Origin: Streptomyces deccanensis
GTDB lineage: Bacteria; Actinomycetota; Actinomycetes; Streptomycetales; Streptomycetaceae
DNA length: 64,000 nucleotides
Direction: 5' to 3'
Assembly (NCBI RefSeq): GCF_022385335.1
Contig: NZ_CP092431.1
Location: 7,006,001 to 7,070,000, forward strand
A model generated the notes under the pieces. It made no database searches, was not told where the DNA came from, and saw nothing but the letters and a program-made list of their open reading frames with translations. The stretch's first letter is position 1, and each line of letters opens with the position of its first letter. The position numbers and the translations under genes were made by a program. Positions 13,783-45,686 of the stretch are shown here, piece after piece.

Positions 13783-15240
13783 TCAGTCGCCGTCGGGCGC
13801 GGTCGTCGTCGCCGGGCGCGGGTGGCGGGGAATGGCGAGCGCGCACAGGGCGCCGGCGAGCACCACCGCGACGCCGACCCACACCGCAGGCCGCAGACCG
13901 TCGACGAACTCCTGAGGGCTCCGCGTGCTGCCGTAGGCCACGAACACGGTGCTGAGCACGGCGATGCCGAGCGCGCCGCCGATCTCGCGGACGGTGGTGT
14001 TGGCGCCGGACGCCTTGCCCGCGTGCTCCTTGGCGACCGACCCCAGGACCACCGCGGCCGTGGGGGCGAAGACGAAGCCCATGCCGATGCCCGCCACGAT
14101 CATCGGGCCGACGAGGGCGGAGTAGGGCGTGTCGGTGCCGGCGACCAGGTTGATCCAGCCGAGCCCCACGCCCTGGAGGAACAGGCCGAGCGCCATCAGA
14201 CGGCCGCCGCCGACCTTGTCGGTGAGGAGCCCGGCGACGGGGGCGACGAACATCGGCATCAGGGTCCAGGCGAGGGTGCGGACGCCGGCCTCCAGCGGGG
14301 TGCGCGGCGGCACGAGCTGGAGGTATTGGGCCAGCAGGAACAGGGAGCCGAACACGCCGAAGTACATGGTCGCCGAGACGACGTTGGTGAGCGTGAAGGC
14401 GCGTACCCGGTAGAAGGACAGCGGCAGCATGGGTTCGGGGGACCGGGCCTCCCAGGCGACGAAGGCGACCAGCAGCACGGTGCCGCCGAGGAACGCGCCC
14501 AGGACCTTCGCCGAGGCCCAGCCGTCGGGTTCGCCGTGCACGATCGCCCACACCGCGGCGCACAGCCCGGCCGCCGCCAGCAGCATGCCGACCAGGTCGA
14601 GGCGCGCGCCGGGCAGGGAGCTCTCCCGCAGGGCCATCAGGACCAGGGGGACGGCGATCACGCACACCGGCACGTTGATCCAGAAGATCCACCGCCAGTC
14701 GAGGCCGTCGACCACCGCGCCGCCCACCACGGGGCCCATGGCCACGGCCAGGCCGCTCACCCCGGACCAGATGCCGAGCGCCATTCCGCGCAGGCGCTCG
14801 GGGACCGCCTGGGACAACAGGGTCAGCGACAGCGGCATGACGGCGGCCGCGCCGAAGCCCTGGAGCGTGCGGAAGGTGATCAGCTGGGCGCTGGTGTCGG
14901 ACAGGCCGCAGCCTATGGAGGCCAGCGTGAACACGACGACGCCGACGACGAAGACCATGCGGCGCCCGAAGCGGTCCCCGAGTGCCGCGCCGGTCATCAA
15001 CAGACAGGCGAAGCTGAGGACGTAGGCGTTGACGAACCACTGGAGCTGCTGGGTGTTCGCCTCCAGGTCGACGGCCAGGGTGTGCAGGGCCGTGGAGACG
15101 ACGAGGTTGTCGAGCGCGACCATGAACATGGGCAGGCTGCACGCGACGACGGCGAGCCACAGGGGGACGCGCCGCTCGCCGGGGGCGGCCGGCTCCGGGG
15201 CGGGACTGTCGAGAACGGCGTTCTCTCCGGACAACGTCAT
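13783..15240 (-). CDS. MFS drug efflux protein, DHA2 (EmrB/QacA) type
   Basis: A 485-residue transporter with about fourteen membrane helices, the count typical of DHA2 proteins. Family motifs are visible: motif A-like GAALGDRFGRRMVFVVGV between helices 2 and 3, the D1-like LDNLVVSTALHTLAVDL in helix 1, and the motif-C-like LGIWSGVSGLAVAMGPVVGG in helix 5. It follows the DUF3291 gene on the same strand by 56 bases and both are divergent from a MerR regulator. Proton-coupled export of a toxic compound is the likely role; the substrate is unknown. Confidence 0.93.
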   Translation of the reverse strand: MTLSGENAVLDSPAPEPAAPGERRVPLWLAVVACSLPMFMVALDNLVVSTALHTLAVDLEANTQQLQWFVNAYVLSFACLLMTGAALGDRFGRRMVFVVGVVVFTLASIGCGLSDTSAQLITFRTLQGFGAAAVMPLSLTLLSQAVPERLRGMALGIWSGVSGLAVAMGPVVGGAVVDGLDWRWIFWINVPVCVIAVPLVLMALRESSLPGARLDLVGMLLAAAGLCAAVWAIVHGEPDGWASAKVLGAFLGGTVLLVAFVAWEARSPEPMLPLSFYRVRAFTLTNVVSATMYFGVFGSLFLLAQYLQLVPPRTPLEAGVRTLAWTLMPMFVAPVAGLLTDKVGGGRLMALGLFLQGVGLGWINLVAGTDTPYSALVGPMIVAGIGMGFVFAPTAAVVLGSVAKEHAGKASGANTTVREIGGALGIAVLSTVFVAYGSTRSPQEFVDGLRPAVWVGVAVVLAGALCALAIPRHPRPATTTAPDGD

Positions 15241-15296: not shown

Positions 15297-15698
15297 TCAG
15301 GAGGTGCTCTGCGCCTGCTCGGCGAGGCGGCGCCGGGCGTCAGGCCAGGCGATGGGCAGATCGGCCGAGGGGACCTGCCAGAAGGTGAAGACCGAGTCCT
15401 TCATCGTGGGCCGCAGGCCGTTCATGATCGACCGGTGCGGTTCGGTCCTCGCGTACGTGTACAGCGCCTCCTTGTCCTCCCACGCCGACAGGGTCCAGAA
15501 GGTGCGCTTCAGGGGCTCGGCGATCAGTGAGGCGCCGTAGGCCCCGGGCGCGCCGGAGACCTGCTTCCACGCGGACAGGGACTGGAGGAAGAACCGCGGT
15601 ACGTCCTTGAGCGAGCGGACCTCCAAGCGCGAGGCCATGACGAACGCCTCGGTGTCCGGTGCGGGGGTGCTGACCGTGGTCCAGCGCAGGGTGGGCAT
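15297..15698 (-). CDS. DUF3291 / monooxygenase-like dimeric alpha-beta barrel protein
   Basis: A 133-residue protein with the ferredoxin-like alpha-beta barrel pattern of DUF3291 and antibiotic-biosynthesis-monooxygenase relatives. Features include MASRLEVRSLKDVPRFFLQS, the SGAPGAYGASLIAEP strand, and the FWTLSAWEDKEALYTYAR helix that is typical of this fold. ATG at 15698 follows GAGAGG; codons upstream run into the operator palindrome. It is first in a two-gene unit with the MFS transporter, under the MerR-linked palindrome. It may modify the molecule that the transporter exports, but that is inference. Confidence 0.8.
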   Translation of the reverse strand: MPTLRWTTVSTPAPDTEAFVMASRLEVRSLKDVPRFFLQSLSAWKQVSGAPGAYGASLIAEPLKRTFWTLSAWEDKEALYTYARTEPHRSIMNGLRPTMKDSVFTFWQVPSADLPIAWPDARRRLAEQAQSTS

Positions 15699-15722
15699 GA
15701 CTGTGGCCCTCTCCGAGGAGAT

Positions 15723-15767
15723 GTTGGATACCTTCACTATCTATGTTAGACAGTGAAGGTATCCAAC
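15723..15767. promoter_or_regulatory. 45-bp near-perfect palindromic operator with face-to-face promoters
   Basis: Perfect 16-bp arms, GTTGGATACCTTCACT (15723-15738) and its complement (15752-15767), surround a 13-base centre that itself holds TCTA..TAGA. On either strand a TTGGAT -35-like hexamer is followed after 17 bases by TAGACA (rightward, 15747-15752) or TAGATA (leftward). The site therefore overlaps both divergent promoters, of the DUF3291/MFS genes and of merR. Confidence 0.85.
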
Positions 15768-15788
15768 TTCTAGTGCTGGGGGCGACCG

Positions 15789-16412
15789 ATGCGCATCTCC
15801 GAGCTGAGCCGCCGCAGCGATGTCTCCGTCGCGACGATCAAGTACTACCTCCGCGAGGGGCTGCTCCCGGCCGGACGGCAGATCTCGGCGACGCAGGCCG
15901 AGTACGACGAGAGCCATGTGCGCAGGCTCCGGCTGATCCGTGCGCTGATCGGCGTCCGAGGGCTGTCCGTCAGCACCACCCGGGAGCTGCTGGGCGCGCT
16001 GGCGGAGCACGCCGGCGACACCCATCTGCAGCTGGGCCTCGCCCTGGGGGCCATCCGGCTCACCGAGGAGGCCGCCGAGGCGCCCTCGGAGACGGGGAAG
16101 GTGGACGCCCTGGTCGAGGAGCTGGGGTGGAACGTGCACGAGTCGGCACCCGCGCGCGTGGCGCTGGCCGAGACCCTGACCACGCTGCGGACCCTCGGCG
16201 CCCCGCTCGACTGGCAGGTGCTGCTGCCGTACGCCCGCCTCGCGGAGCGCACCGCGACCCTCGACCTCGACCAACTGGAGGGGATCGAGGACTCGTTGGA
16301 GGCCGCCGAGCGCGCCCTCCTGCTGACCGTCCTCCTGGAGCCCGCGCTGCTGGCGCTCAGGCGCATGGCCCAGGAGAACGAGTCGGCACGCCGGTACGCC
16401 GGGGACCAGTAG
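15789..16412 (+). CDS. MerR family transcriptional regulator
   Basis: A 207-residue regulator. The N-terminal winged helix has the MerR start MRISELSRRSDVSVATIKYY, then LREGLLPAGR and the wing/second helix segment SHVRRLRLIRALIGVRGLS. The C-terminal effector region is about 130 residues, longer than metal-sensing MerR proteins and without a cysteine pattern, so an organic ligand is more likely than a metal. ATG at 15789 follows a G-rich site and lies 21 bases after the palindrome, so it probably autoregulates and controls the divergent DUF3291-MFS pair. Confidence 0.9.
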   Translation: MRISELSRRSDVSVATIKYYLREGLLPAGRQISATQAEYDESHVRRLRLIRALIGVRGLSVSTTRELLGALAEHAGDTHLQLGLALGAIRLTEEAAEAPSETGKVDALVEELGWNVHESAPARVALAETLTTLRTLGAPLDWQVLLPYARLAERTATLDLDQLEGIEDSLEAAERALLLTVLLEPALLALRRMAQENESARRYAGDQ

Positions 16413-43009: not shown

Positions 43010-43519
43010 GTGCCGAAGCCGCTCAGCCTCTCCTTCGATCCCATCTCGCGCGCCGACGAGCACTGGAAGCAGCGCTGGGGGAACGTGCCGTCCATGGCCG
43101 CGATCACGTCGATCATGCGTGCCCAGCAGATCCTGCTGGCGGAGGTCGACGCGGTGGTCAAACCGTACGGGCTGACGTTCGCGCGCTACGAGGCCCTCGT
43201 GCTGCTCACCTTCTCGCAGAAGGGCGAGCTGCCGATGTCCAAGATCGGTGAGCGGCTCATGGTGCACCCCACCTCCGTGACGAACACCGTCGACCGTCTG
43301 GTGAAGTCCGGTCTGGTCGACAAGCGCCCCAACCCCAACGACGGCCGCGGCACCCTCGCCTCCATCACCGACAAGGGCCGCGAGGTCTGCGACGCCGCCA
43401 CCCGTGACCTCATGGCCATGGACTTCGGCCTCGGCGCCTACGACGCCGAGGAGTGCGCGGAGATCTTCGCGATGCTCAGGCCGCTGCGGGTGGCGGCGGG
43501 GGACTTCGAGGAGAGCTGA
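43010..43519 (+). CDS. MarR family transcriptional regulator
   Basis: A 169-residue winged-helix regulator with the segments AAITSIMRAQQILLAEVDAV, YGLTFARYEALVLLTFSQKG, ELPMSKIGERLMVHPTSVTN and TVDRLVKSGLVDKRPNPNDG. This is a typical MarR DNA-binding domain with a long dimerisation region. GTG at 43010. The DUF3817 gene and icmA follow in the same direction; any link to the palindrome at 43955 is only a possibility. Confidence 0.9.
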   Translation: MPKPLSLSFDPISRADEHWKQRWGNVPSMAAITSIMRAQQILLAEVDAVVKPYGLTFARYEALVLLTFSQKGELPMSKIGERLMVHPTSVTNTVDRLVKSGLVDKRPNPNDGRGTLASITDKGREVCDAATRDLMAMDFGLGAYDAEECAEIFAMLRPLRVAAGDFEES

Positions 43520-43954: not shown

Positions 43955-43978
43955 ATTTACTAGGACGTCCTAGTAAAT
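43955..43978. promoter_or_regulatory. Perfect 24-bp palindrome just upstream of icmA
   Basis: ATTTACTAGGAC-GTCCTAGTAAAT is a perfect palindrome centred on an AatII-like GACGTC. It ends only seven bases before the icmA ATG at 43986, so a bound protein would cover the promoter or leader. No strong ribosome site is seen other than GGTGG next to it. Confidence 0.85.
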
Positions 43979-43985
43979 TGGTGGT

Positions 43986-45686
43986 ATGGACGCTGACGCC
44001 ATCGAAGAGGGCCGCCGCCGCTGGCAGGACCGTTACGACTCCGCGCGGAAGCGGGAGGCCGACTTCACGACGCTCTCCGGGGATCCGGTGGAGCCCGTGT
44101 ACGGGCCCCGGCCGGGCGACGTGTACGAGGGCTTCGAGCGGATCGGCTGGCCGGGGGAGTACCCCTTCACCCGCGGGCTGTATCCGACCGGCTACCGGGG
44201 GCGGACATGGACGATCCGCCAGTTCGCGGGCTTCGGGAACGCCGAGCAGACGAACGAGCGCTACAAGACGATCCTCGCCAACGGGGGCGGAGGACTGTCC
44301 GTCGCGTTCGACATGCCGACCCTGATGGGGCGGGACTCCGACGACCCGCGCTCGCTCGGTGAGGTGGGGCACTGCGGGGTCGCGATCGACTCCGCCGCCG
44401 ACATGGAGGTGTTGTTCCAGGACATCCCGCTGGGCGACGTCACCACGTCCATGACGATCAGCGGGCCCGCCGTCCCCGTCTTCTGTATGTACCTCGTCGC
44501 CGCCGAGCGGCAGGGCGTCGACCCGGGGGTGCTCAACGGCACGCTCCAGACCGACATCTTCAAGGAGTACATCGCGCAGAAGGAGTGGCTCTTCCAGCCC
44601 GAGCCGCATCTGCGGCTCATCGGGGACCTGATGGAGCACTGCGCCGCCGAGATCCCGGCGTACAAGCCGCTGTCCGTCTCCGGCTACCACATCCGTGAGG
44701 CCGGGGCCACGGCCGCGCAGGAGCTGGCGTACACGCTCGCGGACGGGTTCGGGTACGTGGAGCTGGGGCTCAGCCGGGGGCTGGACGTCGACGTGTTCGC
44801 GCCCGGGCTGTCCTTCTTCTTCGACGCGCACGTCGACTTCTTCGAGGAGATCGCCAAGTTCCGCGCGGCGCGCCGGATCTGGGCGCGGTGGATGCGCGAC
44901 GTGTACGGGGCGCGGACGGAGAAGGCCCAGTGGCTGCGGTTCCACACCCAGACCGCCGGGGTCTCGCTGACCGCGCAGCAGCCGTACAACAACGTGGTGC
45001 GTACGGCGGTGGAGGCGCTGTCGGCGGTGCTCGGCGGGACCAACTCGCTGCACACCAACGCGTTGGACGAGACGCTGGCGCTGCCGTCCGAGCAGGCGGC
45101 GGAGATCGCGCTGCGGACGCAGCAGGTGCTGATGGAGGAGACCGGGGTCGCCAACGTCGCCGATCCGCTGGGCGGTTCGTGGTACGTCGAGCAGCTGACG
45201 GACCGTATCGAGGCCGACGCCGAGAAGATCTTCGACCAGATCAAGGAGCGGGGGCTGCGGGCGCATCCGGACGGGGTGCATCCGATCGGGCCGATCACGT
45301 CCGGGATCCTGCGGGGGATCGAGGACGGGTGGTTCACCGGGGAGATCGCGGAGTCCGCCTTCCGGTACCAACAGGCCCTGGAGAAGGGGGAGAAGCGAGT
45401 CGTCGGGGTCAACGTCCACCATGGGTCGGTGACCGGGGACCTGGAGATCCTGCGGGTCAGCCACGAGGTGGAGCGGGAGCAGGTGCGGGTGCTCGCGGGG
45501 CGGAAGGGGGCGCGGGACGACGCGGCGGTGCGGACCGCGCTCGACGCGATGCTCGCGGCGGCGCGGGGTGGGGCCAACATGATCGGGCCGATGCTCGACG
45601 CGGTGCGGGCCGAGGCGACGCTCGGGGAGATCTGCGGGGTGCTGCGGGAGGAGTGGGGGGTGTATACGGAGCCGGCGGGGTTCTAG
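43986..45686 (+). CDS. icmA: Isobutyryl-CoA mutase large subunit
   Basis: It isomerises isobutyryl-CoA and n-butyryl-CoA with adenosylcobalamin, linking valine and fatty-acid metabolism to polyketide precursors. The 566-residue length equals known IcmA. Residue 80 is Phe in TWTIRQF and residue 198 is Gln in FKEYIAQKEW, the two positions that distinguish IcmA from methylmalonyl-CoA mutase (Tyr and Arg). The TIM-barrel core (GGLSVAFDMPTLMGRDSDDP, NVADPLGGSWYVEQLTDRIE) is present, but there is no B12-binding domain (no DxHxxG). It therefore needs a separate small subunit IcmB, which is not in this window. MeaB and the adenosyltransferase encoded here would support it. Confidence 0.95.
   Translation: MDADAIEEGRRRWQDRYDSARKREADFTTLSGDPVEPVYGPRPGDVYEGFERIGWPGEYPFTRGLYPTGYRGRTWTIRQFAGFGNAEQTNERYKTILANGGGGLSVAFDMPTLMGRDSDDPRSLGEVGHCGVAIDSAADMEVLFQDIPLGDVTTSMTISGPAVPVFCMYLVAAERQGVDPGVLNGTLQTDIFKEYIAQKEWLFQPEPHLRLIGDLMEHCAAEIPAYKPLSVSGYHIREAGATAAQELAYTLADGFGYVELGLSRGLDVDVFAPGLSFFFDAHVDFFEEIAKFRAARRIWARWMRDVYGARTEKAQWLRFHTQTAGVSLTAQQPYNNVVRTAVEALSAVLGGTNSLHTNALDETLALPSEQAAEIALRTQQVLMEETGVANVADPLGGSWYVEQLTDRIEADAEKIFDQIKERGLRAHPDGVHPIGPITSGILRGIEDGWFTGEIAESAFRYQQALEKGEKRVVGVNVHHGSVTGDLEILRVSHEVEREQVRVLAGRKGARDDAAVRTALDAMLAAARGGANMIGPMLDAVRAEATLGEICGVLREEWGVYTEPAGF

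Follow-up and report, generated by a model that had tools for sequence, protein, structure and literature searches.

A putative double operator beside an SCO5550-type merR gene in Streptomyces deccanensis

Transcriptional activation through distortion of an over-long promoter is classically illustrated by MerR proteins, and the locus described here raises the question of whether a MerR protein with a 45-bp palindrome beside its gene works in that way. The locus lies in a 64,000-nucleotide stretch of the Streptomyces deccanensis genome (assembly GCF_022385335.1, contig NZ_CP092431.1, positions 7,006,001 to 7,070,000; hereafter the window, whose own numbering is used throughout), in which a near-palindrome at 15723-15767 is flanked by merR (15789-16412, + strand) and by a divergent gene for a DUF3291-like protein (15297-15698, - strand). 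The 207-amino-acid merR product has S. coelicolor SCO5550 (PDB 2dg6) as its closest solved relative by sequence and fold. An initial annotation of the window had treated the palindrome as a single dyad; comparison with relatives instead resolves the site into parts, and it is best read as two adjacent 21-bp dyads with centres 22 bp apart. The same comparison shows this predicted paired-dyad layout recurring next to merR homologues across many genera.

Anatomy and conservation of the palindrome

The palindrome, its arms, the inner TCTA and TAGA and the TTGGAT-N17-TAGA(C/T)A motif of both strands lie exactly where the initial annotation had put them, as do the merR, DUF3291-like and efflux transporter genes. 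Perfect 16-mer arms occupy 15723-15738 (GTTGGATACCTTCACT) and 15752-15767, with TCTA at 15740-15743 and TAGA at 15747-15750 between them. Alignment with relatives places dyad 1, on the DUF3291 side, at 15724-15744 (half-sites TTGGATACCT and CACTATCTAT, centre 15734) and dyad 2, on the merR side, at 15746-15766 (half-sites TTAGACAGTG and AGGTATCCAA, centre 15756, 22 bp from that of dyad 1), and together these features mark 15723-15767 as a putative double operator. When the window was scanned for inverted repeats with a short loop and perfect arms of at least 12 bp, eight came up, and the merR palindrome was the second longest of them; ten mononucleotide shuffles of the window gave no perfect arms above 13.

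To describe the site across relatives we used a first set of 106 distinct loci (4 duplicates removed) and a second set of 66 usable loci, drawn from a sampling of the whole class together with two additional paralogues. In total 171 loci were counted, with no exact duplicates; those set aside were L112 (the window itself), L113 (the same locus as L006), L178 (at a contig end) and L025, whose MerR is 50% identical and whose best dyad scores 10/20. Close relatives carry the same palindrome slightly upstream of merR, which bears out the earlier proposal that the site is tied to this kind of gene. Among the species with this palindrome are S. griseoruber and S. longwoodensis, neither of which is known as a plant pathogen. 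SCO5550-like loci carry a dyad of the form TTGGATAGTG-N-CACTATCCAA, mostly in two copies spaced 23 or 31-32 bp, and we took the 21-bp consensus from those of the first set, requiring at least 13/20 matches for a first dyad and at least 12/20 for a second. On these terms a first dyad was found in 165/171 loci and a second in 145/171 (165/172 and 145/172 if L025 is included), whereas in shuffled upstream regions the first-dyad score was reached in 12/855 and the second-dyad score in 2/855. The 66 later loci are a fairer test of the consensus, and there 60 had a first dyad and 49 a second, spaced 22-24 bp in 40/49 and 32 bp in 3/49.

The distance between dyads follows a narrow rule. Centres of the 145 pairs were 22 bp apart in 63 loci, 23 in 46, 24 in 4, 31 in 9, 32 in 13 and otherwise spaced in 10, such that 131/145 fall at 22, 23, 31 or 32 bp. 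On a MerR tree of 170 loci (one short protein was left out) dyad spacing tracked descent, with 29 changes vs a minimum of 82 across 100 label shuffles. One clade is spaced 31-32 bp in 16/17 members and two clades have a single dyad (6/6 and 6/7).

Long perfect palindromes are common operators in other regulator families, and a protein of another type (e.g. TetR-type) might bind here, its position beside merR being incidental. We regard this as very unlikely, given that the dyads accompany SCO5550-type merR genes at nearly every locus counted despite differing divergent neighbours. In the 10.1-Mb genome, moreover, the left operator unit at up to 3 mismatches matched only the two sides of the merR palindrome (reversed control, 0), and the full palindrome pattern, with a gap of 8-18 bp allowed between arms, occurred a single time. 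At this setting the scan of the left unit thus gave no sign of a larger regulon for the palindrome.

Symmetry was examined in an alignment of 46 of the 53 distinct 45-mers, leaving out seven B-clade rows (L056, L069, L018, L057, L066, L020 and L064). Whole-palindrome pairing held in 80.8% of cells, a value reached by 0/500 shuffles, and 58 cells were changed on both sides vs a shuffled mean of 29.5. The outer half-sites are mostly AGTG/CACT in the neighbouring clade and mostly ACCT/AGGT on both arms in the window's clade, with L053 and L054 half-changed, and it is this joint difference that gives whole-palindrome symmetry its statistical weight. Columns 17 and 29 (window 15739 and 15751) were unpaired in 44/46 rows, as a rule A opposite C; because this inner position is asymmetric almost everywhere, the two sides of the palindrome are not equivalent.

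An inverted repeat of this kind could also form an RNA hairpin in a 5' leader and control elongation or translation. The arms would fold, and their pairs are kept across the 46 rows beyond shuffles, but the candidate transcription starts appear to lie inside the palindrome, in which case neither transcript would contain both arms. The unpaired columns 17 and 29 and the presence in relatives of the same dyads 31-32 bp apart, or singly, also speak against a hairpin, to which we give almost no credence.

The regulator, its promoters and a proposed mechanism

The window MerR protein matches PF13411 with 66.6 bits (cut-off 21.6) and PF00376 with 34.8 bits (cut-off 28.2), indicating an N-terminal MerR winged-helix domain, and MerR or helix-turn-helix families are its only Pfam matches. 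With its structure predicted as a monomer, 2dg6 aligned over 196 residues, the whole chain, whereas the other 49 matches listed covered at most 117 residues. This whole-chain match, with a helical C-terminal half as in 2dg6, assigns the protein to the SCO5550-type subfamily, for whose namesake a novel dimer shape has been reported. The window protein is 98% identical to a MerR of S. caniscabiei, a potato-scab organism, and has a homologue in S. avermitilis, and proteins of the same type (E up to 1e-20) occur in 65/296 sampled genomes of the class and in 32/114 genera. Passages of PMC5045206 name SCO5550, GlnR and TnrA as exceptions to the common MerR conformation, with a different dimerization domain. 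The initial annotation had suspected repression or an unusual mechanism, and the SCO5550 type of the regulator makes the latter plausible.

The argument originally offered for it, a 17-bp promoter spacer, is not supported by comparison. On the + strand TTGGAT-N17-TAGACA spans 15724-15752, and on the - strand the reverse complement reads TTGGAT-N17-TAGATA. Of the three candidate frames on the - strand, the 17-bp one is the most weakly conserved: in TTGGAT-N17-TRGATA the second base is A in 14/33 close relatives, whereas in TTGGAT-N19-GATAGT the GATAGT is kept in 28/33, and a TANNNT is present in 30/33 and in 23/23 of the next clade. A partly conserved TGGNNA immediately to the right of the palindrome stands 18 bp from this TANNNT, or, in six loci, a TTGAAA stands 19 bp from it. 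In the window the candidate -10 of the DUF3291-MFS (major facilitator superfamily) promoter would be TAACAT (15743-15748, - strand), which fits TANNNT and shares bases with the half-sites, and its candidate -35 would be TAGAAG (15767-15772, - strand), 18 bp away, weak in the window and replaced by TGGNNA or TTGAAA in many relatives. For merR the candidate -35 is TTGGAT (15724-15729, + strand), and the -10 could be TAGACA, at 17 bp, or GACAGT, at 19 bp. Conserved promoter-like bases do not prove a promoter here, because the same bases belong to half-sites. The two promoters had been described as lying face to face under one dyad; as drawn here they do overlap, but they diverge, their probable starts pointing away from each other. 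In the S. coelicolor data excerpted from PMC4895711, a TANNNT -10 stands at 80.4% of 3,570 mapped starts, a spacer of 15-20 nt in 62.1% of the 1,667 promoters having both boxes, and 21.0% of primary starts are leaderless.

SCO5550-like loci carry CAAG or CAAC at an invariant position to the right of the proximal dyad (42/44), within GCGCAAG in 31/44, and on the - strand CTTGCGC with CACTAT, 17 bp away inside the dyad, may form a promoter frame. At single-dyad loci such as L080, transcription from this frame would begin at the ATG of the divergent gene or directly beside it. A strict scan of all clades for TTG-starting -35-like elements found one right of the operator in 42/165 loci, at 0-2, 5-8 or 12-15 bp from the dyad, and left of it in 15/165, a suggestive excess on the right. 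At five loci with an SCO5550-type merR (L128, L130, L131, L132 and L149) the single dyad is centred 12-13 bp before the merR start codon and would cover the merR start.

In every clade where a divergent promoter can be drawn, the predicted operator appears to overlap it, at differing distances from the -35-like element. Occlusion tolerates such variation and MerR-type distortion should not. We lean, on sequence evidence, towards a mechanism in which two MerR dimers would bind the double operator and repress by occlusion, with autorepression, until a ligand arrives. Each dyad would hold one dimer, and the pair would bind cooperatively from about the same side of the helix; by analogy with CarA, two side-by-side dimers on one face may be the simplest picture. 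The bound dimers would cover the DUF3291-MFS promoter and the merR promoter, keeping both low, and a small molecule in the all-helical C-terminal domain would release or reshape the complex, allowing the DUF3291-like protein and the efflux pump to be made.

The classical MerR switch would place the regulator between over-spaced -35 and -10 elements, where ligand-driven DNA distortion activates the DUF3291-MFS promoter and the ligand-free protein represses it, the second dyad serving merR autoregulation. Both strands can indeed be read as TTGGAT-N19-GAYAGT, with the well-kept GATAGT on the - strand, and an alternative frame sets dyad 2 between TGGNNA and TANNNT in an 18-bp spacer; the part of PMC5045206 consulted gives spacers of 19-20 bp as a MerR hallmark. 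Against this, the distance from operator to -35-like element seems to depend on the clade, whereas distortion needs a fixed one, and in the SCO5550-like group the -10 best fitting the conserved TTGCGC would lie 17 bp off, inside the dyad. Metal-responsive sites, according to the same part of that source, are single 21-22 bp dyads. We consider the classical switch rather unlikely.

Several observations count against repression by paired dimers, above all the 18-19 bp frames and the title of a 2013 paper. Classical-looking frames of 18-19 bp can be drawn in the window's own clade, as can the 17-bp frame, and the one that holds dyad 2 within its 18-bp spacer resembles classical MerR geometry. The strict scan shows no -35-like element in 123/165 loci. 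A 2013 paper by Hayashi et al. is said, going by its title, to present SCO5550 as a transcriptional activator of sco5551, and the word activator there would suit the classical switch. Two dyads are not indispensable, because 20 of the 170 tree loci have a single dyad and 6 have none at threshold, and the spacings of 22-23 and 31-32 bp, about 9 bp apart, fit helical phasing only roughly. When the two dyads were treated separately in the window's clades, pairing fell to 65.0% of cells, reached by 28/500 shuffles, and their covariation was reached by 370/500; over all 53 45-mers strict pairing was 73.4% for the whole palindrome vs 56.6% for two dyads. The outer arms in these clades pair better with each other than with their own inner partners, which fits the view of a fused palindrome and speaks against two independent dyads there. 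For the window's own clade taken by itself, covariation did not reach significance (35/60 paired, reached by 196/2000 shuffles), and for this reason the evidence of symmetry depends chiefly on a single between-clade change.

More tentatively, and with somewhat less confidence than an even chance would warrant, we extend repression by two cooperating dimers to the SCO5550-type branch as a whole. There, dimers on a phased double operator would shut off divergent ABM (sometimes efflux) genes and would not act as textbook single-dyad activators, and in the window's clade the operators would have fused to one palindrome whose outer half-sites changed specificity together. This large branch of MerR regulators mostly has a predicted paired operator not easily fitted to the promoter-distortion picture. 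The rule for dyad spacing can serve as a search pattern, a pair of TTGGATAGTG-N-CACTATCCAA dyads set 22-24 or 31-32 bp from each other. The comparison also suggests how a long palindrome can originate from two tandem sites.

The divergent partner genes

The DUF3291-like gene (15297-15698, - strand) encodes 133 amino acids. Because its relatives align from MPTL onward, the start is most probably ATG 15698 and not GTG 15737, which lies within the palindrome. Its product scores 22.1 bits against PF11695, below the gathering cut-off of 23.5, although 32/33 aligned members match that family with E values of 0.1 or lower (best 1.6e-6), and it also weakly matches PF13826 and ABM. The monomer model (predicted local distance difference test score 91.7) has an ABM fold, of the ferredoxin-like, dimeric alpha/beta barrel type, and among its PDB matches are several ABM proteins, SnoaB and LsrG included (best E 3.8e-6). 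The neighbouring gene, 56 bp 3' of it (13783-15240, - strand), encodes a 485-amino-acid DHA2-family MFS efflux transporter that scores 291.3 bits against TIGR00711 (NCBIfam; cut-off 230.2).

Profile scans of the divergent strand at the 171 loci found a DUF3291-like gene in 54, a DUF4188-like gene in 72 and neither within the DNA compared in 45. In three SCO5550-like loci the DUF4188-like gene matched PF13826, 'Monooxygenase af470-like', which we take to be a synonym of DUF4188. Profiles of the DUF3291-like and PF13826-like proteins show weak similarity (31 columns, probability 61%), and weak Pfam hits, with the modelled fold of the DUF3291-like protein, suggest that the two may form one superfamily.

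The initial annotation had the DUF3291 protein modify or sense a compound exported by the MFS protein, and had suggested searching other Streptomyces for the palindrome with the same three genes. The palindrome recurs in close relatives, but not always with both genes detected. Among 36 loci with MerR identity of at least 51% and at least 2 kb of upstream DNA, 15 had both genes (in L070 the MFS relative is only a 67-residue piece), 18 had DUF3291 without a detected upstream MFS gene and 3 had MFS without DUF3291; these counts rule out an obligate pair. In five loci (L044, L045, L048 and the shorter L007 and L012) the palindrome has an MFS gene next to it but no DUF3291 gene, and L004 has just a 29-residue DUF3291 piece ahead of its MFS gene. 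By these gene contents, regulator and predicted ABM-type protein are the more constant pair and MFS efflux is a variable addition. At L055 and L064, where no MFS gene was detected nearby, the divergent strand beyond the DUF3291-like gene holds an open frame of roughly 710 codons with high GC at third positions.

Elsewhere in the window, the longest of the eight inverted repeats is a GC-rich one at 993-1046 with 19-bp perfect arms. A perfect 24-bp palindrome, ATTTACTAGGACGTCCTAGTAAAT, at 43955-43978 is likely an operator; it lies just 5' of a 566-amino-acid open reading frame (43986-45686, + strand) that resembles the methylmalonyl-CoA mutase family and 3' of a MarR-like one (43010-43519, + strand), both names being read off the translations.

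Comparison with known systems

The MerR family, the SCO5550 subfamily and a two-dimer MerR-type repressor, CarA, are already known. We found neither the double operator nor the rule for ABM partners described in the literature searched, which lacked most subscription journals, and the SCO5550 paper may cover part of this; nor did that literature yield a paper treating DUF3291 together with MerR or, among the papers listed, one on DUF4188.

On the enzyme side, SnoaB, a cofactor-independent oxygenase, and LsrG match the DUF3291-like model with template-modelling scores of 0.66-0.81 to the target. The 50 ABM-fold matches listed have only 7-19% identity to the DUF3291-like protein, and the likeness is one of predicted fold.

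On the regulator side, the classical MerR activators (MerR, CueR, SoxR, BmrR and TipAL) have the N-terminal winged-helix domain in common with the window protein. The metal-responsive members, as the consulted part of PMC5045206 describes them, use a single 21-22 bp dyad in a 19-20 bp spacer, whereas the window has two dyads. CarA and CarH of Myxococcus and Thermus also have a MerR-type DNA-binding domain. According to PMC8156234, CarA represses as two dimers bound cooperatively to a large operator, some 55 bp long, that overlaps the promoter, a likeness to the mechanism proposed for the window. The same source gives CarA and CarH a C-terminal domain of the B12-binding type, which is absent among the Pfam matches of the window MerR, and CarH sites made of 11-bp direct repeats, whereas the half-sites of the window are inverted in alternation. 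The nearest counterpart is SCO5550 with sco5551 in S. coelicolor; sequence and fold both put SCO5550 in the MerR subfamily of the window protein. We made the comparison through a close SCO5550 relative, L081 (E 5.6e-96 to 2dg6), whose locus has the same kind of dyad as the window and a divergent PF13826 gene. Loci of the L081 type combine dyads 31-32 bp apart with that gene, whereas in the window dyads spaced 22 bp and merged into a single palindrome stand beside genes for a DUF3291-like protein and an MFS pump.
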